DNA from: Sphingomonas sp. DG1-23
Lineage (GTDB): Bacteria; Pseudomonadota; Alphaproteobacteria; Sphingomonadales; Sphingomonadaceae
NCBI RefSeq assembly: GCF_030730875.1
Contig: NZ_JAVAMA010000001.1
Coordinates: forward strand, 1 to 64,000
Direction: 5' to 3'
DNA length: 64,000 nucleotides
This document shows positions 11,513-60,408 of the stretch, piece after piece. Below the pieces are notes generated by a model. It was not told the origin of the DNA. It saw only the letters and a program-made list of their open reading frames with translations, and made no database searches. The position numbers and the translations under genes were made by a program. Each line of letters begins with the position of its first letter. Position 1 is the first letter of the stretch.

Positions 11513-11518
11513 CCCCCT

Positions 11519-19039: not shown

Positions 19040-19066
19040 CCTCTCGCCCCGATTCGCGGCGCCCGT

Positions 19067-25652: not shown

Positions 25653-26573
25653 TCACCGTATCCTGATCGTCTCGATCACGCCGTCCGGGTGATACTGGAT
25701 CGGCTGAATCGCGACGCGGCGGCTGCCATTATACGGGCCGTTGCCAGCCTGCCCTTCCCAGCGATGATAGACGATGTAGCTGTTGCCGTCCTTCGGATCC
25801 TCGAAGAAGCTGTGGTGCCCCGGCCCCTTGTAGCGCGTGTCGCCGACGAGCAGCGGACCGCCATAGCGCCACGGACCGGTCGGCGAGAGCGCCACGGCAT
25901 AATGGACCTGATAATTCGACAGGTTCCACTGCCCCGCCGAATAAGACAGGTAATAGATGCCCTTGCGAAAGTGCATGAACGCACCCTCGGTGAAATTGGG
26001 CGGGGTATCGACCTTCACTTCCTGATCGATCGAGACCATGTCCGGCTTGAGCTTCCAGACGCGCAGCGTCGCGCCAGCGCTGCCGCCGGCATAGAGATAT
26101 GGCGTGCTGGTCTTCGGATCGACGAACACCGCGGGATCGATCGCCTCGAAGCCCTTGCCCCCCGTGATCAGCGGCTTGCCGCTGTCGGTGCAGGGACCCG
26201 CCGGCCCCTTGCACGTCGCCACGCCGATACGGCTGGGAGTCGGGTTTTGCGGGCCGACCGAATAATAGAAATACCAGCCCCCATTCGCCTGGACCATGTC
26301 GGGCGCCCAGAGGAAATGGACCGGGGCGCAGTCGTCATCGGCCCAGGCGATGTCCTTGAGGCGGATCAGCGGGTCGCTCTTTGTCCATTTGGCCTTGTCG
26401 GGCGAGGACCAGGCCGAGAGGCCGTCGCCGCCCGTCGGGTAGATCCAATATTGGCCGTCGGCCATTTCGATATCCGGATCGGCGCCGGCGAAGACCGACT
26501 TCACTTCCTGCGCGGACGCTGCCGGCGGGAGACCCGCCAACAGCGCCGCGAACGGCAGGAATGCGCGCCTCAC
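25653..26573 (-). CDS. Glycoside hydrolase family 43 (arabinosidase-like), exported
   Basis: A 306-residue protein with a signal peptide (MRRAFLPFAALLAGLPPAASAQ) and a five-bladed propeller of the GH43 type. Catalytic residues are visible: the base Asp in AGADPDIEMADG (about residue 33), the modulating Asp in EAIDPAVFVD, and the acid Glu in FTEGAFMHFRKGIYYLSYS. Likely exo- or endo-arabinosidase acting on arabinan or on arabinosylated galactan; family subgroup cannot be fixed by eye. It overlaps the GH5-like gene by four bases and shares its operon with galM and the sugar-acid dehydratase. Confidence 0.88.
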   Translation of the reverse strand: MRRAFLPFAALLAGLPPAASAQEVKSVFAGADPDIEMADGQYWIYPTGGDGLSAWSSPDKAKWTKSDPLIRLKDIAWADDDCAPVHFLWAPDMVQANGGWYFYYSVGPQNPTPSRIGVATCKGPAGPCTDSGKPLITGGKGFEAIDPAVFVDPKTSTPYLYAGGSAGATLRVWKLKPDMVSIDQEVKVDTPPNFTEGAFMHFRKGIYYLSYSAGQWNLSNYQVHYAVALSPTGPWRYGGPLLVGDTRYKGPGHHSFFEDPKDGNSYIVYHRWEGQAGNGPYNGSRRVAIQPIQYHPDGVIETIRIR

Positions 26574-31914: not shown

Positions 31915-32061
31915 TTCCTGCCACGCCTCTCCACGATTTGCGCCTACCGTCTTATTGATATGATTAATCACTTGCCGGTGGTTGGAAGCAACGGCATAGC
32001 GACGACTTGAATGAGAGAGGCTCGTCAAGAGCCCTGCTCAGTTGCCAAGGGGAGGTTCGCG

Positions 32062-34863
32062 ATGCGCCTGAAATCCGTAATTCTAGCTTCGACTTCGTTT
32101 CTCATTTTGGCGGGAACCGCTCCCGCCTTTGCCCAGACCGACGACGCGCCCGCCGCGCAGGACGCAGCCGCAGTCGCGGCCGATGCCGCCACGCAGGAAG
32201 AGGATGCGATCGTCGTCACCGGCTTGCGCCGCAGCCTCGAGACCTCACAGCGGATCAAGCGCGAATCCGAAGGTATCGTCGACGCGATCGTCGCCGAGGA
32301 TATCGGCAAGCTGCCCGACACCTTCGCCTCTTCCGCGCTGCAGCGCGTGGCCGGCGTGAACGTCACCCGCGGCGGTGGCGAATCGGCGGGGGTCACCGTC
32401 CGCGGCCTGCCCAATCTGACCACCACCTATAACGGCCGCGAGATTTTCACTGCCGAAGGTCGCTTCGTCGCGATCCAGGATTTCCCCGCCGGCACCGTCG
32501 CCGCCCTCGAAGTCTACAAGTCCGGCCTCGCCAACCAGGTCGAAGGCGGCATCGCCGGCGCAGTCAACGTCCGCGGCCGCAAGCCTTTCGACTTTGACGG
32601 CTTCGAGCTGTCGGGCTCGCTCAACTATGTTCATTCGGAGCAGGCGCAAAAGGAAGCACCGAACGGCAACCTGCTGATCAGCAACCGCTGGGACACCGGC
32701 ATCGGCGAGATGGGCCTGTTGTTCAACGCGTCCTATGTCGGCATCGAGTTCCTCGATTCGACCCGCGAGCAGTCGCTGGTGATCGCGCGGACCAACCAGG
32801 TCAATCCGCAGAACGGCGAGATCACGAACTACGCGCCGGGCCAACCGGCCGGGCTGCGCTTTCCCGACGCACAGGGCATCTACCAGGGCTATGGCAAGCG
32901 CTGGCGCCCCTCGGCCAACGCCGCGTTCCAGTGGAAGCCGACGCCCGAGCTCGAAATCTATCTCGACGGCCTCTACCAGGGTTTCCGCTCGCAGGATTAC
33001 AACCGCTGGATGTTCATCCCGATCTTCGGCCCGACCACCCTTCCGGGGGTTCGGACCGGAATGACGCTGTCGAACATCACGACCTTTGCCGGCACCAACC
33101 AGATTTCGAGCATGACCGTCACCGGTGCGGCCAATCCCGATGGCTGGACCGGCTCGTTCAACGGCAAGACCGACACCTATCAGGGCGGCGGCGGCATCAT
33201 CTGGACGCGCGACCGGCTGCGGATCTCCGCCGATATCGCCTATACCGACAGCCAGTACACCGCGAACAACGTCAACGTCGACTATTCGATGACCGGCGCG
33301 CCGGTGCGCAACGTCCAGTTCGAGGCCGGGCAGGACGGCGGGCCGACGCAGACCTTCGTCAATTACGACATCACCAACCCCGCCAATTTCACCACGCGCG
33401 GTCTTTGGCAGGAACTGTCGGTGGTGAACGGCAAAGACCTGCAGGCGCGTGCGGATCTTTCCTACGATCTCGATCTGGGCTTCCTGAAGCGGCTGGACGT
33501 CGGCTTCCGCTTCTCCGACCGCAAGGCCGGCCGCAATCTCGGCAACTTCTACGCCAACGGCCAGGGGATCGGCGTTCCGCTGACCTCGCTGCCGGGCGCC
33601 GAGGTGAAGACCAGCCTGCCCGGTTTCACCTACAATCGGGTCCAGCCCAACGTCTTCTATGCGACGCTCACCCGCGACAGCATTCGCGACAATCTGCCCG
33701 CGTTGCGCAGCTTCTTCGGGGCGCCGGCAGGCCTGCCTGCGTTCAATCCGTCCGAGAATTTCCGCGCGAATGAAAAGTCCTATGCCGCTTATGCGCAGCT
33801 GAAATACGGCTTCGACCTGGGCGGCACCGTGATCGACGGCGTGGTCGGCGTGCGCGGCGTCAAGACCAAGCTCAACATCGACGGCTTCTCGCGGGTCGAG
33901 CTTCCGAACGTCCCCGTCACCAACCCGCCGGTTTCCGCCGAAAGCGAATATACCGACTGGCTGCCCAATGCGAGCGCGCGCATCGGCTTCACCGACAAGC
34001 TCCAGATGCGCCTTGCTTTCACCCAGACGCGCACCCGGCCGAACTTCTTCGATCTTCGACCCAACACGACGCTGTTCCAGCCGCCCACCTTCACCGATCC
34101 GAACGATCCCTGCTTCGACGAAACCAACACGACCGAGCCCTGCATCGAGCGTCGCCGCCGCGGCGGTTCGGCCGGCAATCCCAATCTGAAGCCGCTCACT
34201 TCGGACAATTACGACGCGAGCCTCGAATATTATTTCTCGCGGACCGGCTCGCTCACCGCAGGGATCTTCCGCCACGACGCCGCGGGCTTCCTTGCGACGG
34301 TGGCGGACCGCAGCCAGCCGGGCCTGCGCATCGACCGTCCGGTGAACCTTGGCCAGACCCGGCTGCAGGGCGCGGAAATCACCTTCACCAGCTTCCTCGA
34401 CATCGAGGGGCTGCCCGAATGGATGAAGGGCTTCGGCCTGCAGGCCAACGGCACCTATATCGATGCCAAGGGCGACCTGCAGCCGAACTTCGCGGCGACG
34501 CTCAACAACGAGCAGCAGGAATTCCCCGGCGTCTCCAAATGGGCGTACAATCTCGTCGCATTGTACGAGAAGCCGCAATTCTCGGCGCGTCTCGCCTATA
34601 ATTACCGGTCTAAGTTCGTCACCGGCTATACGCTCGAGGCTTTCGATCCGATCGCGCACGCGATCAAGGAGAAGGGCCGCGGCCAGCTCGATTTCTCGAC
34701 TTCAATCACGCCGATTCCGAACATCACCGTGGCGTTCGACATCGTGAACATGCTCGGCAATCCGTTGCAGCGCGAACGCGCGTACGACACCGGCGACGTC
34801 TACACGCGGCAGGTGCTGTACCTCGAGCGCAGCTACTCGCTCGGCGTGCGCTTCCGCTTCTGA
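32062..34863 (+). CDS. TonB-dependent receptor 1 (Caulobacter-type glycan receptor)
   Basis: Outer-membrane active transporter, 933 residues. Signal peptide to AFAQ, a TonB box in DAIVVTGLRRSL, a plug domain with ALQRVAGVNVTRGGGESAGV and GGIAGAVNVRGRKPFDF, then a long beta-barrel ending in the aromatic motif SLGVRFRF. Its GH105 and BNR-4 neighbours downstream suggest uptake of acidic oligosaccharides, probably from rhamnogalacturonan or arabinogalactan. ATG 32062 follows AAGGGGAGG; a longer frame from 32011 is discounted. A terminator-like hairpin follows the gene. Confidence 0.93.
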   Translation: MRLKSVILASTSFLILAGTAPAFAQTDDAPAAQDAAAVAADAATQEEDAIVVTGLRRSLETSQRIKRESEGIVDAIVAEDIGKLPDTFASSALQRVAGVNVTRGGGESAGVTVRGLPNLTTTYNGREIFTAEGRFVAIQDFPAGTVAALEVYKSGLANQVEGGIAGAVNVRGRKPFDFDGFELSGSLNYVHSEQAQKEAPNGNLLISNRWDTGIGEMGLLFNASYVGIEFLDSTREQSLVIARTNQVNPQNGEITNYAPGQPAGLRFPDAQGIYQGYGKRWRPSANAAFQWKPTPELEIYLDGLYQGFRSQDYNRWMFIPIFGPTTLPGVRTGMTLSNITTFAGTNQISSMTVTGAANPDGWTGSFNGKTDTYQGGGGIIWTRDRLRISADIAYTDSQYTANNVNVDYSMTGAPVRNVQFEAGQDGGPTQTFVNYDITNPANFTTRGLWQELSVVNGKDLQARADLSYDLDLGFLKRLDVGFRFSDRKAGRNLGNFYANGQGIGVPLTSLPGAEVKTSLPGFTYNRVQPNVFYATLTRDSIRDNLPALRSFFGAPAGLPAFNPSENFRANEKSYAAYAQLKYGFDLGGTVIDGVVGVRGVKTKLNIDGFSRVELPNVPVTNPPVSAESEYTDWLPNASARIGFTDKLQMRLAFTQTRTRPNFFDLRPNTTLFQPPTFTDPNDPCFDETNTTEPCIERRRRGGSAGNPNLKPLTSDNYDASLEYYFSRTGSLTAGIFRHDAAGFLATVADRSQPGLRIDRPVNLGQTRLQGAEITFTSFLDIEGLPEWMKGFGLQANGTYIDAKGDLQPNFAATLNNEQQEFPGVSKWAYNLVALYEKPQFSARLAYNYRSKFVTGYTLEAFDPIAHAIKEKGRGQLDFSTSITPIPNITVAFDIVNMLGNPLQRERAYDTGDVYTRQVLYLERSYSLGVRFRF

Positions 34864-34970: not shown

Positions 34971-36122
34971 ATGTCGCTGCGCACCGCATTGCTCCTGCTG
35001 GCTGCAACCGGCGCGGCGCCGGGCGCGGCGCTCGCCCAGGCGCCCGCAGCGAGCCCGCGCGCGGCGATCGACACTGCGACCAGGCTGGCACGCTGGCAGC
35101 TCGCGCGGATGACCGACACCAGCCACATCTCCCGCGCCGGCGGCGAGACAGGCAATCCGCGGGCGTGGGAGCAGGCGGCATTCTGGGTCGGCATGACCGC
35201 GCTCGCCGATCACGGCGCGCCCGCCGATATCGGCAAGGCGATCCTCGACATGGGCCGCTCCAATAAGTGGCAGCCGGGCCGTCTGCCCTTCTTCGCCGAC
35301 GATCATGCGATCACCCAGAGCTATCTCTGGACGGCGAAGCATGGTGCAGGCTCGGCTCCGGTGCAGTCGGTGCGCCGCGTCTTCGACAATGTCGTGAACA
35401 ACGCCCCGCGCGTGACGCTCGCCTTCGTCGTTCCGGAAAAGGGCGGCTATGGCGCGACCGAGTGCCTCGCGCGCTGGTGCTGGTGCGATGCGCTGTTCAT
35501 GGCGCCGCCGGCGATGCTCGAGCTGTCGAACCAGACCGGCGACCGACGCTACCGCGATTATGCGCTCCGCGAGATCTGGGCGACCACCAATTTCCTCTAC
35601 GATCCGGCCGAACGGCTCTTCTACCGCGACAGCCGTTTCTTCGACCGGCGCGACGCCGGGGGGCGGAAGATGTTCTGGAGTCGCGGCAATGGCTGGGTGG
35701 TCGCAGGGCTCGCGCTGATGATCCCGAAACTGCCCAAAAGCGATCCCGAGCGGAAGAAGCTCGAGGCCTTGTTCGTCGAGATGGCGGGCAAGGTGAAGGC
35801 CGTGCAGAAGCCCGACGGCTATTGGGCGCCCTCGCTGCTCGCGCCCGAGGATTCGCCGCCCGAATCGAGCGGCACCGGCTTCTTCACCTATGGCCTTGCC
35901 TGGGGGATCAAGGCCGGGCTGCTGCCGCGGGCCGAATATGCACCGGTGGTGCGAAAGGGCTGGTCGGCACTCAATCGCGCGATCCAGCCCGACGGCCGGC
36001 TCGGCTATGTCCAGCAAGTCAGCGATAGGCCCGAACAGGTGCTCGCCACCGACACCCAATATTATGGCGTCGGCGCGTTCCTGCTCGCGGCCAGCGCAGT
36101 CGCAGACCTGAAGCTCGACTGA
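34971..36122 (+). CDS. Glycoside hydrolase family 88/105 (unsaturated uronyl hydrolase), exported
   Basis: A 383-residue (alpha/alpha)6-barrel protein with a signal peptide (to ALAQA). Signatures include RARLPFFADDH-like GRLPFFADDHAIT, an active-site region RWCWCDALFMAPPAM, and MFWSRGNGWVVAGLALM with the family RGNGW motif. Near the end, GTGFFTYGLAWGIKAG is typical. It removes the unsaturated uronic acid left by lyases at the non-reducing end of oligosaccharides. Its stop overlaps the start of the BNR-4 gene (TGATG), so the pair acts together; this is one of two GH105-type enzymes in the window. Confidence 0.9.
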   Translation: MSLRTALLLLAATGAAPGAALAQAPAASPRAAIDTATRLARWQLARMTDTSHISRAGGETGNPRAWEQAAFWVGMTALADHGAPADIGKAILDMGRSNKWQPGRLPFFADDHAITQSYLWTAKHGAGSAPVQSVRRVFDNVVNNAPRVTLAFVVPEKGGYGATECLARWCWCDALFMAPPAMLELSNQTGDRRYRDYALREIWATTNFLYDPAERLFYRDSRFFDRRDAGGRKMFWSRGNGWVVAGLALMIPKLPKSDPERKKLEALFVEMAGKVKAVQKPDGYWAPSLLAPEDSPPESSGTGFFTYGLAWGIKAGLLPRAEYAPVVRKGWSALNRAIQPDGRLGYVQQVSDRPEQVLATDTQYYGVGAFLLAASAVADLKLD

Positions 36123-37432
36123 TGCTGCGGCTGCTGGCGCCGCTCACTCTGGTCTGCGCGGCGCCGGCGGCGGCACAGCGGATCGAGGCGGTCGACCGCG
36201 TTTGGGCCGGTCATGACGTGCCCTTCGCCCTCGTGGTGGCCGAAGAGCGCATCTTCGTCGGCTATTACGATGCCGCACGCCAGTTGAGCGTCGCCAGCCG
36301 CTCGCGCAAGTCTTCCGGGTGGACCTATAAGCGGCTGCCGAGCAAGGTCGGCTGGGATAGCCACAATCGCATCGCCATGGCGATCGACACCGCCGGACAG
36401 CTTCATGTCGCCGCCAACATGCACAATGATCCGCTCGTCTATTTTCGCACGTCCAGCGCGGGCGATGTCCGCACCCTCGCCCGGGTCGAAGTCATGACCG
36501 ACCGGGCGAGCGAGCGGAGCATGACCTATCCGATGTTCCTGAAGAACGCCGGCGGCAGCCTGATCTTCAAATATCGCGACGGGGGCAGCGGGCGTGGGCG
36601 CGAGATCTACAATATCCTCGACGGCGCGGCGTGGAAGCGGCTGCTCGACGCGCCGCTGGTCGACGGCGAAGGCCGGCGCAGCGCCTATTTCGTCGGGCCG
36701 GTATCTGGTCCCGACGGCTGGTTCCATCTCAGCTGGGTCTGGCGCGACACTCCCGATGCGGCGACCAATCACGATCTTTCCTATGCTCGCAGCCGCGACC
36801 TGCTGCATTGGGAGCGCTCGGACGGCACGCCTTTGCCCCTGCCGATCCGGCTGGGTGATGCCGAGGTGGTCGATCCGGTGCCGGTGCGCGGCGGCATGAT
36901 CAACAACAACACGCCGATCGGTTTCGACGCCGCCGGGCGGCCGGCGATCGCATTCCACAAGCTCGACGCGGCGGGGAACACCCAGGTCTATGTCGCGCGT
37001 CGCGAGGCGCGTGCCTGGCGGATCGTGCAGGCGAGCGACTGGAAGGGCTTTCGCTGGGATTTCGGCGGCCCGGGCTCGCTGGACTTCCGCCTGCACGTCG
37101 AGGCGCCCCGAATGGATGGGAGGATGCTCCGCGTGCCGGTGGCGCGCGACGGCAAGCCGATAGACCTGCTGCTCGATGGCGCGACGCTGGCCCGAAACGG
37201 CGAACGGCCGGGAAGGACGCTGGCGGGCCGGCTGGCGAAGCGGATCGCCGTGCCGAAGGGCATGCGGCTCAATACGGTCGAGGACACGTCGGGTGTGGCA
37301 ATCGCCTGGGCGACGCTGCCGCCAAATCGGGATTTGCCCCGTGCGACGGCGCCGGAGCCTCAGACGCTAAGCCTCGTATTACCGCCGACCTTCGTCAGTC
37401 GGCGCGGCGCTCCGGCACGTCTTGCAATGTAG
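36122..37432 (+). CDS. BNR-4 repeat beta-propeller protein, probable polysaccharide lyase
   Basis: A 436-residue exported protein (signal MLRLLAPLTLVCAAPAAAQ) whose body matches the BNR-4 type propeller. RIFVGYYDAARQLSVASRSR, WDSHNRIAMAIDTAGQLHVA and NMHNDPLVYFRTS repeat in bladed fashion. Known BNR-4 enzymes include ulvan lyases and L-rhamnosyl-glucuronate lyases; the His/Tyr-rich HNRI and NMHNDP stretches sit where those enzymes bind substrate. Coupled to a GH105, which would clear the unsaturated product. Exact activity is unknown and not assignable by sequence reading. Confidence 0.7.
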   Translation: MLRLLAPLTLVCAAPAAAQRIEAVDRVWAGHDVPFALVVAEERIFVGYYDAARQLSVASRSRKSSGWTYKRLPSKVGWDSHNRIAMAIDTAGQLHVAANMHNDPLVYFRTSSAGDVRTLARVEVMTDRASERSMTYPMFLKNAGGSLIFKYRDGGSGRGREIYNILDGAAWKRLLDAPLVDGEGRRSAYFVGPVSGPDGWFHLSWVWRDTPDAATNHDLSYARSRDLLHWERSDGTPLPLPIRLGDAEVVDPVPVRGGMINNNTPIGFDAAGRPAIAFHKLDAAGNTQVYVARREARAWRIVQASDWKGFRWDFGGPGSLDFRLHVEAPRMDGRMLRVPVARDGKPIDLLLDGATLARNGERPGRTLAGRLAKRIAVPKGMRLNTVEDTSGVAIAWATLPPNRDLPRATAPEPQTLSLVLPPTFVSRRGAPARLAM

Positions 37433-37605: not shown

Positions 37606-38676
37606 TTAGCAATCCACCTTCCGCTCGGTCGGTGTGTGCGGCTGGATGCACGGGTGGGTGGGATAGGCTTCGAGGTCGAGTTCGGTCGCTTCGCGCACGA
37701 CTTCCACCCGGTCGCCCGCATCCTTCATCTCATAGAGCTTGCCGAGCGCGAAGGTGAAGGGCCGGTGGAGGACCATCATCAGCCGGCCGTCGAACGCGCG
37801 GAACAGCATGCCGTGACCGCTGTCGCGGCGGACCAGCGGGTCGAGCTGCTCCCACGGCCCTTCGAGGCTGCCCGATTTCGAGCGCGCGATCGACTGGACA
37901 TAGCCGCGCTCGCCATAGCTCGACCACAGCATCACCAGCGTGCCTTTGGCGGTGCGATAAAATTCGGGACCGTCGGTCACCCAGACGCTGTCGCCGTCGG
38001 GCTGGCGCTGGCCCTTGGCCCAGGGCGCTTCGTCGGCGCGAAACAACAGCTTGGGCGGGCCCGCGGCGGCGAGCATGTCGTCGAGCGGGATCGCCTCGAT
38101 CGTGCCCACCGTAGTCTGCAGCCATTCATGGGCATAGACGAGCCACGGCTTGCCCGCGGCATCGACATGGAGCGTGCCGTCGAGCGTCATCAATTCCTTG
38201 GGCGCGATCGGCTCGCCGTTCCGGACGGCGCGATATGGCCCGTCCACCTTGTCAGCCACCGCGAGGATGGTGCCGCGGCGATAGGGCTTGCGATTGCCTT
38301 CGGGCGGCAAGGTCGCGGCTTCATCGTGGAAGGTCGTGAAGAGGTACCATTTGCCCCGCCATTGATGCACCTCGGGCGCCCAGGCGCCGCCCTTGGCCCA
38401 AATGCCTTCGGGCAGCGTGAACACTACCCGCGGGCGGCTCCAGTGCTTCAGGTCCCTGCTGGCATAGACCATCGTGCCGAGCCGGCGCTCACCGGTCATC
38501 GCGGTCTCGTTGCGGGTGAAGAGATAATAGGTCTTGCTGGCATTGTCGGCGACGATGAAGGGATCGTGGAGCTGCATTTGCGGGAGGAGCAGCGGCGCTT
38601 CGGCGGGCTTTTGCTGCGCGGCGACTGGGGCCGCCGTGAGTACGGCCAGCGCAGCGAGCAAATGCTTGAATCGCAT
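37606..38676 (-). CDS. Glycoside hydrolase family 43, exported
   Basis: A 356-residue protein with a signal peptide (to APVAAQ) and GH43 triad candidates: base Asp in MQLHDPFIVAD, second Asp in ELMTLDGTLHVD, and acid Glu in VTDGPEFYRTAKGT. WAPEVHQWRGKWYLF is typical of the fold. It differs strongly from the GH43 at 25653, so it belongs to another subfamily (arabinosidase, xylosidase or galactanase). It lies 4 bp after the MFS transporter stop as last gene of the rhamnose operon on this strand. Confidence 0.85.
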   Translation of the reverse strand: MRFKHLLAALAVLTAAPVAAQQKPAEAPLLLPQMQLHDPFIVADNASKTYYLFTRNETAMTGERRLGTMVYASRDLKHWSRPRVVFTLPEGIWAKGGAWAPEVHQWRGKWYLFTTFHDEAATLPPEGNRKPYRRGTILAVADKVDGPYRAVRNGEPIAPKELMTLDGTLHVDAAGKPWLVYAHEWLQTTVGTIEAIPLDDMLAAAGPPKLLFRADEAPWAKGQRQPDGDSVWVTDGPEFYRTAKGTLVMLWSSYGERGYVQSIARSKSGSLEGPWEQLDPLVRRDSGHGMLFRAFDGRLMMVLHRPFTFALGKLYEMKDAGDRVEVVREATELDLEAYPTHPCIQPHTPTERKVDC

Positions 38677-38680
38677 GCCC

Positions 38681-39910
38681 TTAGCTCCGCCCCGCCGCGA
38701 TTTCCTCGAGCGACTTACCTTCGTTGCGTGGCGCCCAGATCAATCCGATCACACTCGAGGCGACGAGGAAGCCGGTCAGGATCCACGCCAGCGTGGTGTA
38801 ATCATAGGATGCGAGCCACGGCACGAAGAAGCTCCAGATGCCGAGGCCGATGCGGACGATGGCGAAGGTAAGACCCTGCGCCGTCGAGCGGATCGCGGTT
38901 GGGAAAAGCTCGGCCGACCAGAGCTGGAAGAAGCTCTGCGCGCCGAAACCGCCAGCCACCCCCATGATGATCACATGGAGGATGTAGATCTCCAGCGTGA
39001 AGCCGAAGATCGCGAGGATCGCCATGCCGACCACATGCATCGCCGCGGAAATGCCGAACAGCAGCCGCTGGTTGACCTTGTCGGACAGCGTCATGAAGAT
39101 CGCGAGGATCGAGACCATGCCGATCAGGAAATAGCTCGCCGGCACGATCGTCGCGACCCATTCGGGCAGATCATGCTGGTTGACGAGATAGGGCGTGAAG
39201 AAGCCGTTGAACCCCGCCCACAGGTTCCAGAAGCCGTACATCGCGGCGAGGAACAGCACCGCCGCGAAATAGCGCGGACTGAACAGCTCGCGCCAGCCGG
39301 TCTGCTGGTCCTGTGCCTGGCTCTCCTCCCAACGCTGCGACTCCCGCATCCGCGAACGCAGGAAGGTCAGCCCCAGCGCCAGCACGGCCAGATGCGCGAA
39401 GATCCAGCGCACTCCGGTGATGCCCCAGGGCTGGAGGAAAAAGGCCGCGACCAGCACCGCGACCGGGCCGAGGTACCAGAGCAATTGCGCCACGCCCGAA
39501 TGCGCGCCGCGCTTGTCGTCGGGCGCCTGCTCGGCGATCAGCGACCACGAGGCGGGGATGTCCGCGCCGACCGCGAGGCCCACGAGAACGAACCCCAGCA
39601 CGATCATCCACGGCGCCGAGGCGAAGACGAGGAACAGCATGCCGAACGCGTAGAACAGCATGTCGTACTGGTAGATCTTCTTGCGACCGAATTTGTCGCA
39701 CAGGATGCCGCCGATCAGCGCGCCGACACCGGCGGAGATCGCGTTGGCGCTGAACGCCCCGATCAGCCCGATAAAGCTGTCCGAAAGGCCGTAAATCTCC
39801 TTCCACAGCGCCAGCGCGACCGATCCGGCGACGATCGACCCCGCATCGATATAATTGGCGAGGCCGGCGAGAATGGTGTCGCGCCACTTATGGTCCTGCG
39901 TGTCGCTCAT
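38681..39910 (-). CDS. MFS sugar/acid transporter (likely rhamnose or oligosaccharide)
   Basis: A 409-residue, 12-helix major facilitator with the loop 2-3 motif GGILCDKFGRKKIYQYD and GVAQLLWYLGPVAVL mid-protein. SAELFPTAIRSTAQGLTFAI belongs to the sugar/metabolite:H+ symporter group. It sits between the lactonase gene (8-bp gap) and the GH43 gene inside the rhamnose-catabolic operon, so it probably imports L-rhamnose, rhamnonate or a rhamnose-bearing oligosaccharide. A longer frame up to 40585 runs through the lactonase and is rejected. Confidence 0.9.
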   Translation of the reverse strand: MSDTQDHKWRDTILAGLANYIDAGSIVAGSVALALWKEIYGLSDSFIGLIGAFSANAISAGVGALIGGILCDKFGRKKIYQYDMLFYAFGMLFLVFASAPWMIVLGFVLVGLAVGADIPASWSLIAEQAPDDKRGAHSGVAQLLWYLGPVAVLVAAFFLQPWGITGVRWIFAHLAVLALGLTFLRSRMRESQRWEESQAQDQQTGWRELFSPRYFAAVLFLAAMYGFWNLWAGFNGFFTPYLVNQHDLPEWVATIVPASYFLIGMVSILAIFMTLSDKVNQRLLFGISAAMHVVGMAILAIFGFTLEIYILHVIIMGVAGGFGAQSFFQLWSAELFPTAIRSTAQGLTFAIVRIGLGIWSFFVPWLASYDYTTLAWILTGFLVASSVIGLIWAPRNEGKSLEEIAAGRS

Positions 39911-39918
39911 ATGCCCCC

Positions 39919-40821
39919 TCAGATGCCCAGCCCGAGCCGGTAGATGCGATCGGCGTTGCGCCCCCACAGCGCGCGGCGCTCGTCCTCGCTGAAATCGGCA
40001 GTGATCGCGGCATAGGCGTCGAGATGCTGCGCGAAGCTGCCGAAGAGCTTGTCGGTCGGAAAGTCGCTGGCGAACATCGCGCGGTCGGTGCCGAACAACC
40101 CGATCGCTTCGAGGATGTAGAGCCGTGCCTGGTCGAGGCTCCACGGGCGATGCGTGAAGCCCATTCCCGAGAGCTTGGTCGCGACATTGGGCAAGGCGGC
40201 GAGCGCGGCCATGCCGGTGCGCCACTGCTCCCATTCGCCGGGCACCGCCATGCCGGTATGGTTGATAATGATTTGCGTTTCGGGGTGCCGCGCGATGATC
40301 TCCGCGAGCCCCGCGAACTGGCCGGGATAGGCCTGGAGGTCGAAGCTCAGCCCGTATTTGCCGAGCAAGGCGAAGCCCTGCGCCCAGGCCTCGTCCTGCG
40401 TGACGTCGCGCGGCGTGTAGCTGCGGCGCGGGTCGGCGTGCCAGTTGACGATGTGGCGGATGCCGCGGACGGCGTGGTGCGCGGCATGCGCGTCGAGCAA
40501 GGCCTCGATCCCGGGGTCGTCGAGCGCGGCGAAGGCGATGATCGCATTGGGCATGCCGCGTGCGTCGGCGAGGCCCTGCAGCCATTCGGTCTCGGCGAGC
40601 GCGGCGCTGGCGTCGGCACCGGCATCGACATGGACGATGCCGCGGACGTCCCAGCCCTCGGCATCGGCGAGGTAGTCGTCGAGCAGATAGGTCCTGGCGA
40701 TCGGCGCGACGCTGCCATTGGGGCCGTCATCGGCGAAGGGCGGCGTCAGCCACGGATAGGCGATGCGGTCGAGGTCCCAGAGATGCACATGGGCATCGAT
40801 GAACGGCAGATCGCGCGCCAT
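39919..40821 (-). CDS. Amidohydrolase, probable L-rhamnono-gamma-lactonase
   Basis: Opens the lactone formed by rhamnose 1-dehydrogenase to L-rhamnonate (LRA2-type step). The 300-residue metal-dependent hydrolase of the COG3618 group has the metal motif IDAHVHLWDLD at residues 8-18, a His in IIINHTGM, and the catalytic Asp in FASDFPTDK. Start is ATG 40821 after GAGAGGAA. Upstream lies a 162-bp palindromic repeat that separates it from the other rhamnose genes on the same strand. L-fuconolactone is an alternative substrate by family, but context favours rhamnono-lactone. Confidence 0.82.
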   Translation of the reverse strand: MARDLPFIDAHVHLWDLDRIAYPWLTPPFADDGPNGSVAPIARTYLLDDYLADAEGWDVRGIVHVDAGADASAALAETEWLQGLADARGMPNAIIAFAALDDPGIEALLDAHAAHHAVRGIRHIVNWHADPRRSYTPRDVTQDEAWAQGFALLGKYGLSFDLQAYPGQFAGLAEIIARHPETQIIINHTGMAVPGEWEQWRTGMAALAALPNVATKLSGMGFTHRPWSLDQARLYILEAIGLFGTDRAMFASDFPTDKLFGSFAQHLDAYAAITADFSEDERRALWGRNADRIYRLGLGI

Positions 40822-40830
40822 TTCCTCTCC

Positions 40831-40992
40831 AACTCCTCCCCGAGCTCGCCTGGGGGAGGGGACCATTGCCGCAGGCAATGGTGGAGAGGCGCCGCCGCAG
40901 TCGCCGGGTACCGCTCCACAAACGCCGCTGCGCGGCGCCCCTCCACCATGCTGCGCATGGTCCCCCTCCCCGAGCAAGCTCGGGGAGGAATT
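40831..40992. repeat. Palindromic repeat between rhamnose genes
   Basis: The outer arms AACTCCTCCCC and GGGGAGGAATT enclose inner inverted blocks such as GGCAATGGTGGAGAGG and CCTCCACCATGC. Its left end directly abuts the ribosome site of the lactonase gene at 40821. Same family as the other CCTCCCC/GGGGAGG elements. Confidence 0.75.
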
Positions 40993-40995
40993 AGT

Positions 40996-41745
40996 TCAAT
41001 ACGTCGTCCGCCCCCCGGACGTGTCGAAAGTCGACGCCGTCGTGAAGCTGCATTCCTCGCTCGCCATGAACAGGATCATCGCGGCGCTTTCCTCGGCCTC
41101 GCCGAGGCGGCCCATCGGGATCTTCGAGCGCATGTAATCGACCTGGCTCGCGGGGAGTTGTTCGAGGATCGGGCTCTCGAACGTCGCCGGAGTCAGCGCG
41201 TTGGCGATGATGCCCTTGCCCGCCAGTTCCTTGCCGAGCGACTTGGTGAGGCCGATCACCCCCGCTTTCGACGCCGAATAGGCCGAGGCGTTGGGATTGC
41301 CTTCCTTGCCCGCGACCGAGGCGACGTTGACGATCCGGCCATAGCCGTTCGCCAGCATCTGCGGGATCACTTCGCGGCAGCAATAGAACAGGCCGTTGAG
41401 GTTGATGTCGATCACGCGCTGCCAGCTGTCGAGCGGGAATTCGTGGACCGGCACGGTCGCGCCGGTGATCCCGGCCGAATTGACCAGCACGTCGATCCGG
41501 CCGAGCGCCGCGGCGCTGTCTTTGGCGGCCCGGGCGACCGCCGCGGGATCGGAAACGTCGAGCACGACATTGTGCTTCGCGCCGATCTCGCCCGCCACCG
41601 TGGCGAGCGCATCGGCGTTCAGGTCCCAGAGCGCGACCTCGCCCCCTTCGGCGATGAAGCGGCGCGCGACCGCAAGACCGAGCCCCCCGGTGCCGCCGGT
41701 GATGACCGCGGTGCGGCCGGCGAAGCGGCCGGAATAAACGGTCAT
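40996..41745 (-). CDS. SDR, probable 2-keto-3-deoxy-L-rhamnonate 4-dehydrogenase
   Basis: Oxidises KDR at C4 to 2,4-diketo-3-deoxy-L-rhamnonate (LRA5-type step) with NAD. The 249-residue classical SDR has TGGTGGLG at residues 15-22, NSAGITG, catalytic Ser in VASVAGKEG, and YSASKAG (Tyr and Lys). Its position right after the FAH-type hydrolase (four-base ATGA overlap) and after rhamnonate dehydratase is the basis for the specific call; family alone would only say SDR. The repeat at 40831 follows its stop codon. Confidence 0.85.
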   Translation of the reverse strand: MTVYSGRFAGRTAVITGGTGGLGLAVARRFIAEGGEVALWDLNADALATVAGEIGAKHNVVLDVSDPAAVARAAKDSAAALGRIDVLVNSAGITGATVPVHEFPLDSWQRVIDINLNGLFYCCREVIPQMLANGYGRIVNVASVAGKEGNPNASAYSASKAGVIGLTKSLGKELAGKGIIANALTPATFESPILEQLPASQVDYMRSKIPMGRLGEAEESAAMILFMASEECSFTTASTFDTSGGRTTY

Positions 41746-42596
41746 TCGGCCACCCACGCCACGAATTCCTGACGCTGCTCGCCGAGTTTCTCGATGCCGA
41801 GAGTCACGACGTCGCCCGCCTTCAGATACCAGGGCTCGGGCTTCTGGCCGAGGCCGACGCCGGGAGGCGTGCCGGTGGTGATGACGTCGCCGGGCTCGAG
41901 GATCATGAACTGCGAGAGATAGGCGATGATCTGCGCGACGGTGAAGATCATCGTCTTGGTCGATCCGTCCTGCTTGCGCTCGCCATTGACGTCGAGCCAC
42001 ATGCTCAAATTCTGCGGATCGCCGACCTCGTCGGCGGTGACCAGCCAGGGGCCGATCGGGCCGAAGGTCGGAAAGCCCTTGCCCTTGTCCCAGGTCGCGC
42101 CGCGCTCGGTCTGCCAGTGGCGCTCGGAAATGTCGTCGATCACGCAATAGCCGGCGACATGGCTGAGCGCATCGGCTTCCGAAACGTAGGAAGCGCGCTT
42201 GCCGATGATCACGCCGAGCTCGACTTCCCAATCGGTCTTCTTCGAATCCTTCGGGATCGTCACCGGATCGTTCGGTCCCTGGATGCAGGTCACCCATTTC
42301 TGGAACACCACCGGCTCTTCGGGGATCGGCAGGTTCGATTCCGCCGCGTGATCGGCATAGTTCAGGCCGATCGCGACGAACTGCCGCGTGCCGGCGACGC
42401 AGGCGCCGTAGCGCGGATCGCCCTCGACCTTGGGCAGCGATGCCGGGTCGATCGCGGCGAGCCTTGCCAGCCCCTCGGGAGAGATCTCGGCGGGGCCCAC
42501 ATCGGCGATCACGCCCGACAAGTCGCGTATCGCGCCGTCGGCGTCGATCAGGCCGGGGCGTTCGTTACCGGCGGTTCCAAAACGGCAGAGTTTCAT
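41742..42596 (-). CDS. FAH family hydrolase, probable 2,4-diketo-3-deoxy-L-rhamnonate hydrolase
   Basis: Cleaves the diketo acid to pyruvate and L-lactate (LRA6-type step). The 284-residue protein of the fumarylacetoacetase family has metal ligands in TDWEVELGVIIGK (two Glu) and CVIDDISERHWQ (Asp). FVAIGLNYADHAAES and GDVITTGTPPGVGLG are classic motifs. Gene order rhmD-FAH-SDR matches the alternative rhamnose route characterised in Sphingomonas by Watanabe and Makino. It overlaps the SDR by four bases. Confidence 0.88.
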   Translation of the reverse strand: MKLCRFGTAGNERPGLIDADGAIRDLSGVIADVGPAEISPEGLARLAAIDPASLPKVEGDPRYGACVAGTRQFVAIGLNYADHAAESNLPIPEEPVVFQKWVTCIQGPNDPVTIPKDSKKTDWEVELGVIIGKRASYVSEADALSHVAGYCVIDDISERHWQTERGATWDKGKGFPTFGPIGPWLVTADEVGDPQNLSMWLDVNGERKQDGSTKTMIFTVAQIIAYLSQFMILEPGDVITTGTPPGVGLGQKPEPWYLKAGDVVTLGIEKLGEQRQEFVAWVAE

Positions 42597-42614: not shown

Positions 42615-43811
42615 TCAATGCGTGTAGGGGCGGTGCATCGGCAGTTCGCGATTGAGCTCGACCCCGAAGCCGGGCTTGTCGAGCGCGCTCACATGCAGGC
42701 GCCCGTTCACGGGCACCGGCTCGCCGATCAATTGCGGGTGGAACATCGGGACGACTTCGGTCGGCCCGGGATGCATCATCAGGAACTCGGCGAAGGGCGA
42801 GTTATGCCGGGTGATGACGAAGTGATAGCTGTAGACGCTCGAGCCGTGCGGGATCATCAGGACGCCCTTGCTGTCGGCATAATTGGCAATCTTGATCAGT
42901 TCGGTGACGCCGCCGCACCAGCCCACATCGGGCTGGATGATGTCGCAGCATTCCATGTCCATCAGCATGCGGAAGCCCCAACGGGTCGCCTCGTGCTCGC
43001 CGGTGGTGACGAGCAGGCCCCTGGGGGCGTTCTTCTTCAATGCGGCATAGGCCCAATAATCGTCGGGGCTCAGCGCCTCCTCGATCCACTTCAAGCCGCA
43101 CTCATTGTACGCCCTGTGGGCGAGCCGGGTGGCATAATCGAGGTCGAGGCTCATCCAGCAATCGAGCATCAGCCAGAAATCGTCGCCGACCTTGGCGCGC
43201 ATGTCGGCGAGATCGGCGATGTTCCTGTGCAGCCCGTCCAGTCCCTCGGCCGGGCCGTGGTGGAGCGGGAGCTTGCCGCCGATAAAGCCGAGCTCCTTGG
43301 CCACGTCGGGCCGTGCGCCGGTCGCGTAGAATTGCAATTCGTCGCGCACCGCGCCGCCGAGCATTTGATAGACCGGCTCGCCGCGCAACTTGCCGAGCAG
43401 GTCCCAGAGCGCAAGGTCGACGCCCGAAATGGCATTCACCACCAGACCCTTGCGGCCATAATATTGCGTCGAGAAGTACATCTGGTCCCAGATCTTCTCA
43501 TAGTCGGTCGGGCTGCGGCCTTCGAGGAAGCGCGCGAGATGCTTTTCGACGATGAACGCCGCGGGCTCGCCGCCGGTGGTCACCGCGAAGCCGATCGTGC
43601 CGTCCTCGGCCTCGATCTCGACGATCAGGGTGCCGAGCACGTTGATGCCGAAACTTTGCCGCGACTGGCGATATTCGGGATAGCGCGCCATCGGCGTGGC
43701 GATGTGATCGTCGATCCAGTGACCACCGCCCTGATCATGATAATCGGCACCGCCGCCGCGGACGGTAAAGGCACGGACGTGCTTGATCTTCGAAAGGCCG
43801 GCTGCAGCCAC
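42615..43811 (-). CDS. rhmD: L-rhamnonate dehydratase (enolase superfamily)
   Basis: Dehydrates L-rhamnonate to 2-keto-3-deoxy-L-rhamnonate with Mg. The 398-residue protein carries the RhmD-specific N-terminal stretch [20 protein letters not shown] and [20 protein letters not shown]. Metal ligands are suggested in MLDCWMSLD (Asp), WIEEALSP (Glu) and [12 protein letters not shown] (Glu). The catalytic His region is [18 protein letters not shown] start at 43811 preceded by AAAGGGGA. First gene of the minus-strand rhamnose operon; divergent from the IclR regulator. Confidence 0.94.
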
Positions 43812-44862: not shown

Positions 44863-45627
44863 GTGAGGTTGTTGGAAGGCAAGACCGTGCTCGTCACGGG
44901 CGCATCGACGGGCATCGGCCGCGCCGCCGCGGTCGGCGCCGCCAAAGCCGGCGCCGATGTCGTCATCAACTATCACAGCCGCGACGACGATGCTGCGGCA
45001 TGCGTCGCCGAGATCGAGGCGGCCGGCCAGCGCGGGCTGGCGGTGAAAGGCGACGTCGCCGCGCCGGAGACCGCGACCGAGTTCGTGCGGAAAGCAGTCG
45101 AGGCGTTCGGCAAGGTCGACGTGATGGTCTCCAACGCCGGAATCTGCCCGTTCCATTCGTTCCTCGACATGCCCGTCGAGACCGTCCAGCGGACGATGCA
45201 GGTCAATCTGCTCGGCGGCTATTTCATGTGCCAGGCGGCGGCCAACCAGATGGTCGCGCAGGGCCATGGCGGCGCGCTGATCGCGGTCTCCTCGATCTCG
45301 GCTTTGGTCGGCGGCGAATATCAAACGCACTACACCCCGACCAAGGCGGGGCTGCATTCGCTGATGCAGTCGACTGCGATCGCGCTGGGCAAGCACAATA
45401 TCCGCTGCAATTCGGTGTTGCCCGGCACGATCCTCACCGAGATCAACAAGGACGATCTCGCCGATGTGGAGAAGCGCAAATACATGGAAGGCCGCATCCC
45501 GCTCGGCCGGCTGGGCCAGGCCGAGGATCTCGCCGGGCCGATCGTCTTCCTCGCTTCGGACATGGCGGCCTATGTCACCGGCGCGGCCTTGCTGGTCGAC
45601 GGCGGCGCTTTCGTGAATCTGCAATGA
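44863..45627 (+). CDS. SDR, probable L-rhamnose 1-dehydrogenase
   Basis: Oxidises L-rhamnose to L-rhamnono-lactone (LRA1-type first step). It is a 254-residue classical SDR with TGASTGIGRAAAVGAAKAG at the N-terminus, SNAGICPF, catalytic Ser in VSSISALVG, and YTPTKAG (Tyr-Lys). The N-terminus and CPFHSFLDMP region resemble sphingomonad rhamnose dehydrogenases. GTG start after GGGAGAGG. It is downstream of the IclR regulator, and its TGA overlaps the acetylesterase ATG by four bases. Confidence 0.86.
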   Translation: MRLLEGKTVLVTGASTGIGRAAAVGAAKAGADVVINYHSRDDDAAACVAEIEAAGQRGLAVKGDVAAPETATEFVRKAVEAFGKVDVMVSNAGICPFHSFLDMPVETVQRTMQVNLLGGYFMCQAAANQMVAQGHGGALIAVSSISALVGGEYQTHYTPTKAGLHSLMQSTAIALGKHNIRCNSVLPGTILTEINKDDLADVEKRKYMEGRIPLGRLGQAEDLAGPIVFLASDMAAYVTGAALLVDGGAFVNLQ

Positions 45628-49917: not shown

Positions 49918-51789
49918 ATGCTGGCGGCACTGATCATCGCATCGGCGATCCCTGCGCCGGCGGCGCCGGCAGTGGCGGGACGGCAAATCGAGCGCCTCGA
50001 TCGCGGGCTGGTCGCCGTGCCGGCGGCGGGCGGCGGCAATCAGGTCTCGTGGCGGTTGCTCGCCACCGACGCCAGAAGCGCACGCTTCACGCTCTATCGC
50101 GACGGCAAGCCGATCGCACGGGTCGGTGGCAGTCAGGCGACCAGCTTTCTCGACCGCGCCGGTACCGTCACCTCGCGTTATTCGCTCGCGGCAAAAGGCG
50201 CCGGCGCGCTCGCCTGGGCCAACGGCTATCTTGCGATCCCGCTCGACAAGCCTGCCGAGGGGCGCACTGGCGACGGCGAGACCTATGGCTATACCGCCAA
50301 CGACGCTTCGGTCGGCGATCTCGACGGCGACGGACGCTATGAGCTGATCGTCAAATGGTATCCGACGATCGCCAAGGACAATGCCTTTTCGGGCTATACC
50401 GGCGTCACCTTGATCGACGCCTATACGCTCGAGGGCAGGAAGCTGTGGCGGATCAATCTGGGGCCAAACATCCGCTCGGGCGCGCATTACACCCAGTTCA
50501 TGGTCTATGATCTCGACGGCGACGGCAAAGCCGAAGTTGCGATGAAGACTGCCGACGGCACGGTCGACGGCACCAACCACATGATCGGCGATCCGCATGC
50601 CAGCTGGACCAGCCGCGAAGGTGAAGTCGACATCGAGGACCGCACCGGCGCCAAGGTCCTGCCCGATGGGCGAAAGGTTTCCGAACTCAAGGGTCGCATC
50701 CTCAGGGGCCCCGAATATCTGACTGTATTCGACGGCACGACCGGCAGAGCGCTGGCCAGCGCGCCCTACGCACCCTCGCGCGGTCCAGGCGGCGACGACA
50801 ATCCGGACTATGAGCGGATGAAGGCGGTCTGGGGCGATGGCTATGGCAACCGCTCCGAACGCTATCTGGCCGGGCTGGCCTATCTCGACGGGCACAGACC
50901 CAGCCTCGTCTTCGGACGCGGTTACTATGCCCGCTCGACCGTCGCCGCCTGGGATTATCGAAAGGGCGAGCTCCGCATGCGCTGGCTGTTCGACAGCGCA
51001 GTGCCGGGCAATGAAAAGTTCGGTGGTCAGGGCAACCATCAGCTCTCGGTCGCCGATGTCGACGGCGACGGGCGCGACGAGATATTCTACGGATCGATGG
51101 TGCTCGACGATGACGGCAAGGGCCTGTGGTCCTCGGGCCTCGGGCATGGCGATGCGATGCACTTGTCCGATCTCGACCCGACGCATCCGGGGCTCGAGAA
51201 GTTCGGCGTGCATGAGAATATGAAGATGAGCGGCAATCGCGGCGCGGCGATGCTCGATGCGAAGACCGGGGCGATCCTTTGGTCGACGCCGGCCGACAGG
51301 GATACCGGCCGCGGCATCGCGATCGACGTGGATCCGCGCCATGCGGGCGCCGAGGCTTGGGCGAGCAATTCGCGCGACCTTTATGATGCGAAGGGCAACG
51401 TCATTCCCGGCGGGCATCCGCGCGCGGCCAATTTCGGGATCTGGTGGGACGGCGACCGGCTGCGCGAGTTGCTCGACGGCAAGCGGATTTCCAAATGGGA
51501 CTGGAACAATGGCACCGAGCAGATCCTGCTCGACCCGGCCGGCGCGGTCTCGAACAACGGCACCAAGGCGAACCCGTCGCTGTCCGCCGACATCATCGGC
51601 GACTGGCGCGAGGAACTGGCGGTGCCGAGCGCGGACAGCCGCGAGCTGCGCATCTACGCTACGCCCTACCCCACCAGCGAACGCATCGTGACGCTGATGC
51701 ACGACCCGGTCTATCGGCTCGGAGTGGCGTGGCAGAACACCGCGTACAACCAGCCGCCACACACGTCGTATTTCCTGGGGGCGAAGTGA
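49918..51789 (+). CDS. Rhamnogalacturonan lyase, polysaccharide lyase family 11
   Basis: Cuts the rhamnogalacturonan-I backbone by beta-elimination. The 623-residue exported protein has a short hydrophobic signal (MLAALIIASAIPAPAAPA) and the eight-bladed PL11 propeller. Several Ca-binding DxDGDG motifs are seen: VGDLDGDGRYELIVKWYP, VYDLDGDGKAEVAMKTADG and VADVDGDGRDEIFYGSM. PNIRSGAHYTQF is a family hallmark. Start ATG 49918 after GGGGAGAGG. It leads an eight-gene co-directional cluster to 61796. Confidence 0.95.
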   Translation: MLAALIIASAIPAPAAPAVAGRQIERLDRGLVAVPAAGGGNQVSWRLLATDARSARFTLYRDGKPIARVGGSQATSFLDRAGTVTSRYSLAAKGAGALAWANGYLAIPLDKPAEGRTGDGETYGYTANDASVGDLDGDGRYELIVKWYPTIAKDNAFSGYTGVTLIDAYTLEGRKLWRINLGPNIRSGAHYTQFMVYDLDGDGKAEVAMKTADGTVDGTNHMIGDPHASWTSREGEVDIEDRTGAKVLPDGRKVSELKGRILRGPEYLTVFDGTTGRALASAPYAPSRGPGGDDNPDYERMKAVWGDGYGNRSERYLAGLAYLDGHRPSLVFGRGYYARSTVAAWDYRKGELRMRWLFDSAVPGNEKFGGQGNHQLSVADVDGDGRDEIFYGSMVLDDDGKGLWSSGLGHGDAMHLSDLDPTHPGLEKFGVHENMKMSGNRGAAMLDAKTGAILWSTPADRDTGRGIAIDVDPRHAGAEAWASNSRDLYDAKGNVIPGGHPRAANFGIWWDGDRLRELLDGKRISKWDWNNGTEQILLDPAGAVSNNGTKANPSLSADIIGDWREELAVPSADSRELRIYATPYPTSERIVTLMHDPVYRLGVAWQNTAYNQPPHTSYFLGAK

Positions 51790-59292: not shown

Positions 59293-60408
59293 TTGGCCGC
59301 CCTCACCCACGACGTTCCGCGCAGCGAGATCACGTCGAAGATCGACCTGCTGATGGACAATCTCGTCAACATCAAGGACGAGACCGGCGAGTTCCTGCTT
59401 CATCTCGAGGACGGCCGGATCATCGACACCAAGGGCTGGGCCGGCTGGGAATGGACGCACGGCGTCGGCCTGTTCGGGATGTGGCGCTATTACGAGCAGA
59501 CCGGCGACGACAAAGCGCTGCACATCGTCAAGCAATGGTTCGAGGACCGCTTCGCGGAGGGCACGCCGACCAAGAACATCAATACGATGGCGCCGTTCAT
59601 CACGCTCGCCTACCTCTATGAGCACGAGCCTGATCCGCGCTATCTGCCCTATCTCGACACCTGGGCCGAATGGCTGATGGCGCCCGACGGGCTGCCCAAG
59701 ACCGAGGAAGGCGGGTTTCAGCACATCGTCTTCAACGACGAGAATCCCGGCGAATTATGGGACGACACGTTGATGATGTCGGTGCTGCCGCTTGCCAAGA
59801 TCGGGCTGCTGCTCAATCGGCCGCATTATGTCGAGGAGGCGAAGCGCCAGTTCCTCGTCCACATCAAATATCTGTTCGACCGCAAGACCGGGCTGTGGTT
59901 CCACGGCTGGGACTTCAACGGCCGGCACAATTTCGCCGAGGCGCTTTGGGCGCGCGGCAATTGCTGGGTGACGATCGCGATCCCCGAGATCATCGAGATC
60001 CTCGATCTTTCCGAGGGCGACGCCTTCCGCACCTTCCTGATCGACACGCTCGCCGCGCAAGTGAAGACGCTCGCCGGGACGCAGGATGCCGAAAGCGGGT
60101 TGTGGCACACGCTGATCATGGATCCGACGTCGTACCTCGAAGCCTCGGCCACCGCCGGCTTCGCTTATGGCATTCTGAAGGGCGTGCGGAAGGGCTATCT
60201 GCCGCGCGAATATGAGCAGGTCGGGATCAAGGCAGTGCGCGGCGTGCTGGCGAATATCGACCCGGCGGGCGAGCTCCAGCAGGTCAGCTTCGGCACTGCG
60301 ATGGGCGACAGCATGCAATTCTACAAGGATATCCGCCTGACCTCGATGCCCTATGGCCAGAGCCTCGCGATCTGCGCGCTGGGCGAGTTCCTGCGGACCT
60401 ATATCTGA
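59293..60408 (+). CDS. Unsaturated rhamnogalacturonyl hydrolase (GH105), cytoplasmic
   Basis: Removes the unsaturated galacturonyl residue from lyase-made RG oligosaccharides. The 371-residue (alpha/alpha)6 protein has no signal peptide. TTG start at 59293 after AGGAG. Motifs are WAGWEWTHGVGLFGMWRYYE, TLMMSVLPLAKIGLLL, and ALWARGNCWVTIAIPEII. GDSMQFYKDIRLTSMPYGQS is a hallmark of YteR-like enzymes. The one-base TGATG overlap with the following GH28 shows coupling. Confidence 0.94.
   Translation: MAALTHDVPRSEITSKIDLLMDNLVNIKDETGEFLLHLEDGRIIDTKGWAGWEWTHGVGLFGMWRYYEQTGDDKALHIVKQWFEDRFAEGTPTKNINTMAPFITLAYLYEHEPDPRYLPYLDTWAEWLMAPDGLPKTEEGGFQHIVFNDENPGELWDDTLMMSVLPLAKIGLLLNRPHYVEEAKRQFLVHIKYLFDRKTGLWFHGWDFNGRHNFAEALWARGNCWVTIAIPEIIEILDLSEGDAFRTFLIDTLAAQVKTLAGTQDAESGLWHTLIMDPTSYLEASATAGFAYGILKGVRKGYLPREYEQVGIKAVRGVLANIDPAGELQQVSFGTAMGDSMQFYKDIRLTSMPYGQSLAICALGEFLRTYI

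Follow-up and report, generated by a model that had tools for sequence, protein, structure and literature searches.

In a 64,000-nucleotide stretch of the Sphingomonas sp. DG1-23 genome (assembly GCF_030730875.1, contig NZ_JAVAMA010000001.1, positions 1 to 64,000; hereafter the window), two adjacent genes encode a GH105-family protein, GH105a, and a BNR_4 propeller protein. We consider it likely that the two form a functional pair, an exo-lyase of family PL42 (formerly GH145) followed by a GH105 hydrolase, acting in sequence on L-rhamnose-alpha-1,4-D-glucuronic acid (Rha-alpha-1,4-GlcA) ends. In our assessment, family membership and catalytic residues support this reading strongly and the adjoining product pathways moderately, and a tested pair from Bacteroides plebeius provides a precedent; activity, cell location and substrate are what we infer here.

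34971..36122, + strand: GH105a, predicted exported unsaturated glucuronyl hydrolase (PF07470), with Asp173 in a WCWCDALFMAPP motif
36120..36124, + strand: TGATG stop/start overlap of the GH105a and BNR_4 genes, read from the sequence and kept across a group of related loci
36122..37432, + strand: PL42-type lyase (BNR_4, former GH145), predicted exported propeller, assigned from Pfam, PDB matches, model and alignment

GH105a (383 amino acids) matches Glyco_hydro_88 (PF07470, the Pfam family of GH88 and GH105) with an E value of 2.2e-69, and the BNR_4 protein (436 amino acids) matches PF15892 with an E value of 4.3e-86. A preliminary description of this DNA had given the two open reading frames (ORFs) exactly these coordinates, had taken both products to be exported and had placed the pair behind a TonB receptor; the frames are present as given, export is predicted from signal-peptide-like N-termini judged by eye, and the receptor ends 107 bases upstream of GH105a. 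The same description called the two genes translationally fused, which does not hold, as the junction (GAC TGATG CTG) is an overlap of two genes that yield separate proteins. The genes are probably translationally coupled through this overlap, which recurs at 9/9 sites printed for a group of 10 Sphingomonas genomes with a conserved locus, one of them (L092, in G967) with the GH105 frame ending before it; in the tenth genome, G873, the junction is lost. Because the 4.59-Mb genome carries a single BNR_4 gene and three PF07470 genes, the pairing is not a matter of chance.

The propeller is closest to the enzymes once classified as GH145. Its best PDB matches by sequence were BACCELL_00856, BACINT_00347, BT3686 and 4irt (E 2.1e-41 to 1.9e-40), the structures being 5mvh (2.1e-41), 5mum, 5muk and 4irt, followed by FoRham1 of Fusarium oxysporum, the founding PL42 lyase (7esk, 1.5e-14). 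With a 22-row BNR_4 profile, FoRham1 was reached at 4.7e-26 and short ulvan lyases of the PL24 type from 1.7e-10. An AlphaFold2 model built from 35 rows (predicted local distance difference test, pLDDT, 90.2) consists of nearly all strands, matching propellers, with no (alpha/alpha)6 barrel as in PL27. Compared by VIA-align, it scored Z 32.9-34.5 against former GH145 structures (357-375 residues, root-mean-square deviation, rmsd, 3.4-3.6), 25.8-27.5 against FoRham1 (7esk: 27.5, 371 residues, rmsd 3.9), 21.9-22.9 against PL25 and PL24 (22.9 and 22.4, respectively) and 18.0 at most against lectins; Foldseek returned the order former GH145, FoRham1, PL24, PL25, lectins. BACCELL_00856, BACINT_00347 and BT3686, the nearest in both sequence and fold (Z 32.9-34.2), share the anterior lyase residues with the window protein at 28-29% identity over the fold. 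FoRham1 shares the family, fold, His-His-Asp motif and Arg neutralizer; unlike the window protein it is fungal, and the two are only 19-20% identical. Sequence and model thus argue strongly for a seven-bladed propeller belonging to PL42. The protein also extends at its C terminus by a tail of some 15 residues (window 37385-37432) that the seven nearest rows of the alignment lack; residues 427-436 have a pLDDT below 50. Two other family assignments were rejected: PL24/PL25, which former GH145/PL42 structures outrank in sequence and fold, and PL27, as the model is strand-built and propeller-like rather than an (alpha/alpha)6 barrel.

We mapped the catalytic residues of FoRham1, as given in excerpts of PMC8377490 and PMC10951650, by counting along the pairwise alignment, with column conservation taken from 35 aligned rows. 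Asp83, His85, His105, Tyr150 and Arg166 of FoRham1 correspond to Asp79, His81, His101, Tyr136 and Arg152 of the window protein, and Ser170, Tyr202, Arg220 and Asn275 to Ser156, Tyr189, Arg208 and Asn261, all nine being identical in 35/35 rows. At the level of sequence, these residues lend strong support to the assignment as a PL42 lyase.

The posterior face of the propeller bears on a different reading, in which the protein is a retaining alpha-rhamnosidase of the GH145 type, like BT3686, that leaves a saturated GlcA product, with a GH105 unrelated to it. BT3686 is among the nearest structures and its rhamnosidase model is the best NCBIfam match, but the score of 182.7 bits lies far below the cut-off of 700. 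More decisively, His48 of BT3686, the posterior rhamnosidase site, corresponds to Ala40 in the window protein (Gln in BACCELL_00856 and BACINT_00347) and is His in 0/35 rows. According to an excerpt of PMC8406133, two Bacteroides members without His48 had no rhamnosidase activity on gum arabic and released rhamnose from wine arabinogalactan protein (AGP) as lyases, one of them requiring the equivalent of window His81. Since the posterior histidine is replaced by alanine and the anterior lyase residues are kept, a lyase rather than a hydrolase is predicted, and we regard the rhamnosidase alternative as highly improbable. The hydrolase reading was rejected on the missing posterior histidine.

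GH105a fits the second step. Among solved structures its highest score is to 4ce7 (195.8 bits), named unsaturated 3S-rhamnoglycuronyl hydrolase, followed by 5noa and 4q88, with YteR at 48.7, and its Asp173 is identical in 17/17 rows and corresponds to the conserved Asp of the family, Asp143 of YteR, which we take to be catalytic. The family match and this conserved residue predict hydrolysis of 4,5-unsaturated uronyl residues. The window holds a second member of the family:

59293..60408, + strand: GH105b, second GH105 of the locus, nearest to 3qwt/3pmm/4xuv, then YteR

For GH105b the order is 3qwt, 3pmm, 4xuv, then YteR (87.2 bits), with 4ce7 last (39.1). Given these opposite rankings of 4ce7 and YteR, the two proteins are of different subtypes, GH105a presumably acting on unsaturated GlcA in beta linkage and GH105b on unsaturated galacturonic acid (GalA) in alpha linkage. 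As a separate observation, NCBIfam names GH105b 'beta-galactosidase BglB' above cut-off (480.2 versus 420), at odds with PF07470, and similar proteins may be misnamed by annotation pipelines.

The top match of GH105a also bears on whether the pair could serve ulvan, as a PL24/PL25-like lyase and its partner on sulfated Rha-GlcA. We take the 4ce7-type enzyme to serve in ulvan use; moreover, PL24 (LOR_107) and PL25 (PLSV_3936) ulvan lyases have the same propeller and His-His-Asp triad as the window protein and come next in the fold ranking. However, these enzymes are endo-acting on ulvan, PL42 members score far higher in both sequence and fold, and enzymes for rhamnogalacturonan I (RG-I) lie all around the pair. 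FoRham1 itself, in the excerpted text of PMC8377490, had only trace activity on ulvan. Ulvan is therefore unlikely as the main substrate, and an ulvan lyase pair as such is very hard to reconcile with the comparisons.

Nor does the propeller look like a non-catalytic or degenerate BNR protein, a reading to which we give very little credence. The pair is broken in 2/10 genomes of the conserved-locus group (G873, G967), yet the catalytic residues do not vary in any of the rows, and lectins rank below all lyases in the fold comparison. Judged from the sequences, the pair is under purifying selection, with dN/dS (NG86, 4 comparisons for each gene) of 0.14-0.23 for BNR_4 and 0.09-0.24 for GH105a. 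The preliminary description had seen in the two genes a Rha-uronate lyase other than the standard RG-I lyases and a GH105 clearing its unsaturated product, and this much is borne out as a prediction: the sequence, fold and residues lead to PL42, the closest solved relative of GH105a is an unsaturated rhamnoglycuronyl hydrolase, and an ordinary PL11 lyase is encoded separately in the same locus. The structure prediction and comparison with PL24, PL25 and PL42 that it proposed placed PL42 and former GH145 first and PL24/PL25 lower; as for a close resemblance to non-catalytic BNR proteins, which it thought would speak against a lyase, the nearest solved relatives are former GH145 enzymes.

Tested PL42 lyases cleave Rha-alpha-1,4-GlcA ends (excerpts of PMC8377490 and PMC8406133). 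By analogy, the window protein would act in the periplasm or further out, its anterior face binding a non-reducing-end L-Rha-alpha-1,4-D-GlcA disaccharide. The carboxylate would be neutralized by Arg152, while His81, linked with His101 and Asp79, would take H5 and protonate the leaving rhamnose oxygen in a syn-elimination. The products would be free L-rhamnose and a chain with 4,5-unsaturated GlcA at its end, which GH105a would then remove. For FoRham1, a quantum mechanics/molecular mechanics study (2026, excerpt of PMC13169297) favors a concerted elimination, as opposed to the stepwise scheme of PMC10951650 (also an excerpt). The rhamnose would enter the neighboring oxidative pathway (rhamnose dehydrogenase, rhamnonate dehydratase and diketo-rhamnonate hydrolase), and the uronate would pass to an isomerase of the KduI/IolB family, genes of which occur in 2 places elsewhere in the genome. 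The likeliest carriers would be arabinogalactan side chains that are capped with Rha-GlcA and are taken up along with RG-I. The third GH105-family gene of the genome (G000:C12:334718-336579) adjoins a KduI/IolB-family gene.

By its sequence neighbors, the pair is placed in a locus for RG-I and oxidative L-rhamnose use, the principal features of which are as follows.

32011..34863 (likely start 32062), + strand: TonB-dependent receptor directly upstream of the pair (TIGR01782, 569.1 bits, cut-off 310)
37606..38676, - strand: GH43 (GH43a), facing the pair; best solved relative 5c0p, named endo-arabinase
38681..39934 (ORF listed 38681-40585), - strand: major facilitator superfamily (MFS) transporter
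39919..40845, - strand: amidohydrolase, probable L-rhamnono-lactonase (Amidohydro_2; L-fucono-1,5-lactonase match below cut-off)
40996..41745, - strand: short-chain dehydrogenase/reductase (SDR), probable 2-keto-3-deoxy-L-rhamnonate dehydrogenase, judged from its place
41742..42596, - strand: 2,4-didehydro-3-deoxy-L-rhamnonate hydrolase-like protein (NF053535, 473.5 bits, below the cut-off of 500)
42615..43811, - strand: L-rhamnonate dehydratase (NF011968, 751.1 bits, cut-off 393)
44863..45627, + strand: L-rhamnose 1-dehydrogenase Lra1 (NF053807, 454.5 bits, cut-off 400)
49918..51789, + strand: PL11 rhamnogalacturonan lyase, the ordinary RG-I lyase of the locus

An IclR regulator lies between the L-rhamnonate dehydratase side and Lra1, and beyond Lra1 follow a GDSL esterase, a second TonB receptor, PL11, a pectate-lyase-like protein, GH35, GH53, GH105b and GH28.

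This setting lends itself to an explanation built on the RG-I backbone, in which the propeller would free terminal rhamnose from Rha-alpha-1,4-GalA ends and GH105a would remove the unsaturated GalA, so that the polymer is peeled from its non-reducing end. The pair sits among RG-I enzymes (PL11, GH28, GH35, GH53 and a second GH105), the lyase has rhamnose genes beside it both in the window and in 9/9 other loci of the conserved-locus group, and the scan of window proteins, covering a subset of its ORFs, turned up no alpha-rhamnosidase, the genomic GH106 and GH78 matches being on other contigs. The biochemistry of the family points elsewhere: in the excerpts of PMC8377490, FoRham1 was without detectable activity on Rha-ended RG-I oligosaccharides and BT3686 had none on RG-I. 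A syn mechanism with a single histidine would suit GlcA and not GalA, with its axial O4. Furthermore, the closest solved relative of GH105a is a rhamnoglycuronyl enzyme, and GH105b, closer to YteR, is already in the locus. On balance, we find the backbone explanation unlikely. In a related scenario, the Sphingomonas branch of PL42 would have shifted from arabinogalactan caps to RG-I, peeling Rha-uronate units off RG-I or off RG-I side chains; this is a doubtful possibility, although, if true, RG-I would be a new substrate for environmental PL42 enzymes without the rhamnosidase site, feeding an oxidative rhamnose pathway.

BNR_4 was present in 32/295 genomes of the genus (30 above cut-off), 17/396 drawn from the order (14 above cut-off) and 5/385 drawn from the class (4 above cut-off). 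Locus surroundings were taken for all genus matches except the four weakest (G951, G1016, G813 and G125), and locus counts are given without L095-L098, whose BNR_4 matches were either of insufficient strength or missed in searches with the window protein, and without L100, a second stretch of G012. The conserved-locus group comprises 10 genomes of the genus, i.e., the window's own and nine other loci with the lyase in the same place; the rhamnose block is found in 10, GH43a in 9, the intact pair in 8 and the TonB receptor in 7. In a tree from which the two broken copies were left out, the eight intact-pair proteins formed a clade with support of 100/100; a long-branch warning applies to L006 with L043 and five more. 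Of 14 loci in a sister group (60-66% identity), 6 have a GH105a homolog within the fetched 12-20 kb, 4 of them within about 5 kb; in another group of the family, more remote at 39-40% identity, one lies within about 4 kb in 6/6. Nearby genes above NCBIfam cut-off include a bifunctional rhamnulose-1-phosphate aldolase/dehydrogenase in the distant relative L043 and a 5-dehydro-4-deoxy-glucuronate isomerase, KduI, in L077. The scanned sister loci L078 and L042 carry efflux, peptidase or phosphatase genes and no such rhamnose or uronate genes, and the setting of the sister group is therefore mixed.

The two broken copies differ in kind. Sphingomonas sp. UNC305MFCol5.2 (G873; L005:7917-9209 / L090:9249-10541) has lost the GH105 gene, and its BNR_4 frame starts within GH105-like sequence and continues directly into BNR_4 without the usual signal peptide, so that the locus looks like the product of a deletion. 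In Sphingomonas sp. 7/4-4 (G967; L004:6839-9265 / L092) the module is decaying: BNR_4 extends over two frames, the GH105 is shortened and GH43a is divided into two pieces, the only such case among the 9 genomes that have it. At the other extreme, G012 (C1:2046800-2086600; L043 and L100), G091, G285, G157, G324 and G307 each have three or four copies of BNR_4 in a span of about 25-54 kb. These multicopy genomes, of the same family, have a GH105a homolog near, and the rhamnulose aldolase fusion is named in L043 only; as a guess, some of the distant copies may be ulvan-lyase-like.

Several observations weigh against a lyase-hydrolase pair specific for Rha-GlcA ends. Gln276 of FoRham1 is Asn262 in the window protein (Asn in 22, Gly in 7 and a gap in 6 of the 35 rows), and Tyr26, Arg331 and Glu381 are without fixed equivalents, the alignments ending near chain position 300; window Arg323, a guessed candidate for Arg331, is Arg in just 23/35 rows. 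For these reasons the rhamnose subsite may differ from that of FoRham1. The Bacteroides PL42 lyases cut wine AGP and not gum arabic, as far as the excerpt of PMC8406133 goes, so that fine specificity is not readable from the family. No GH105a homolog was found within the fetched 12-20 kb in 8/14 sister-group loci, and none came up in the surroundings of L006, of L099 or of the five remotest rows. Finally, an arabinogalactan-specific enzyme was recognized in none of the window proteins scanned, and none of the 10 genomic GH43 matches (of 20) put to NCBIfam received the name exo-1,3-galactanase. Eight of those 10 domains matched arabinanase models, all below cut-off, and two matched nothing; one genomic GH43 met PDB chains named xylanase and arabinanase. 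A GH5-like protein (26570-27715) has at best a weak PDB match to PslG, and a genome search for the GH79 C-terminal domain (PF16862) gave no match, an uninformative result, as the controls were equally silent.

The closest counterpart of the predicted PL42-GH105 pair is BpGH145 (BACPLE_00338) with BpGH105 (BACPLE_00337) from PUL5, a polysaccharide utilization locus (PUL) of B. plebeius, for which sequential action on wine AGP has been shown (excerpt of PMC8406133). There, as in the window, a PL42 lyase without the posterior histidine is accompanied by a GH105, in that case of the next locus number. The settings differ, in that PUL5 is a Bacteroides PUL with a GH43_24 exo-galactanase, for sulfated wine AGP, whereas the window offers an RG-I/rhamnose locus and a TonB receptor with no such enzymes recognized; the likeness is one of description and not of alignment. 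The PL27 lyases BACCELL_00875, BACFIN_07013 and BT0263 perform the same reaction on Rha-GlcA of gum arabic with an unrelated (alpha/alpha)6 barrel (excerpt of PMC8377490), and hence are analogs only.

The kind of system is thus already known; its novelty lies in the group of hosts, in the conserved coupling and in a setting of RG-I and rhamnose genes. The published PL42 tests considered, from excerpted sources, cover only gut Bacteroidota (Bacteroides and Dysgonomonas) and one Fusarium, and other substrates of the PL42 lyase site are yet to be identified according to PMC8406133 (excerpt). Our literature search, made over open-licence titles and the starts of abstracts, found no study of a PL42/BNR_4 and GH105 pair in sphingomonads. 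In the window, the lyase, its GH105 and the rhamnose route can be named within one locus, and a small group of Sphingomonas has conserved the two genes together. The pair would offer a compact and cheap test of PL42 specificity beyond the gut, and possibly a tool enzyme for uncapping arabinogalactans. The reason for the RG-I/rhamnose setting may lie in a capped arabinogalactan or in a Rha-uronate linkage of RG-I.

The sugar locus has some unrelated neighbors. At its edge, two adjacent tryptophan-halogenase-like genes (16143-19072, - strand) lie beside a resistance-nodulation-division (RND) efflux operon (10277-16146), and a chemotaxis receptor with CHASE3, HAMP and MCP domains (23616-25469, + strand) is encoded beside the sugar genes.

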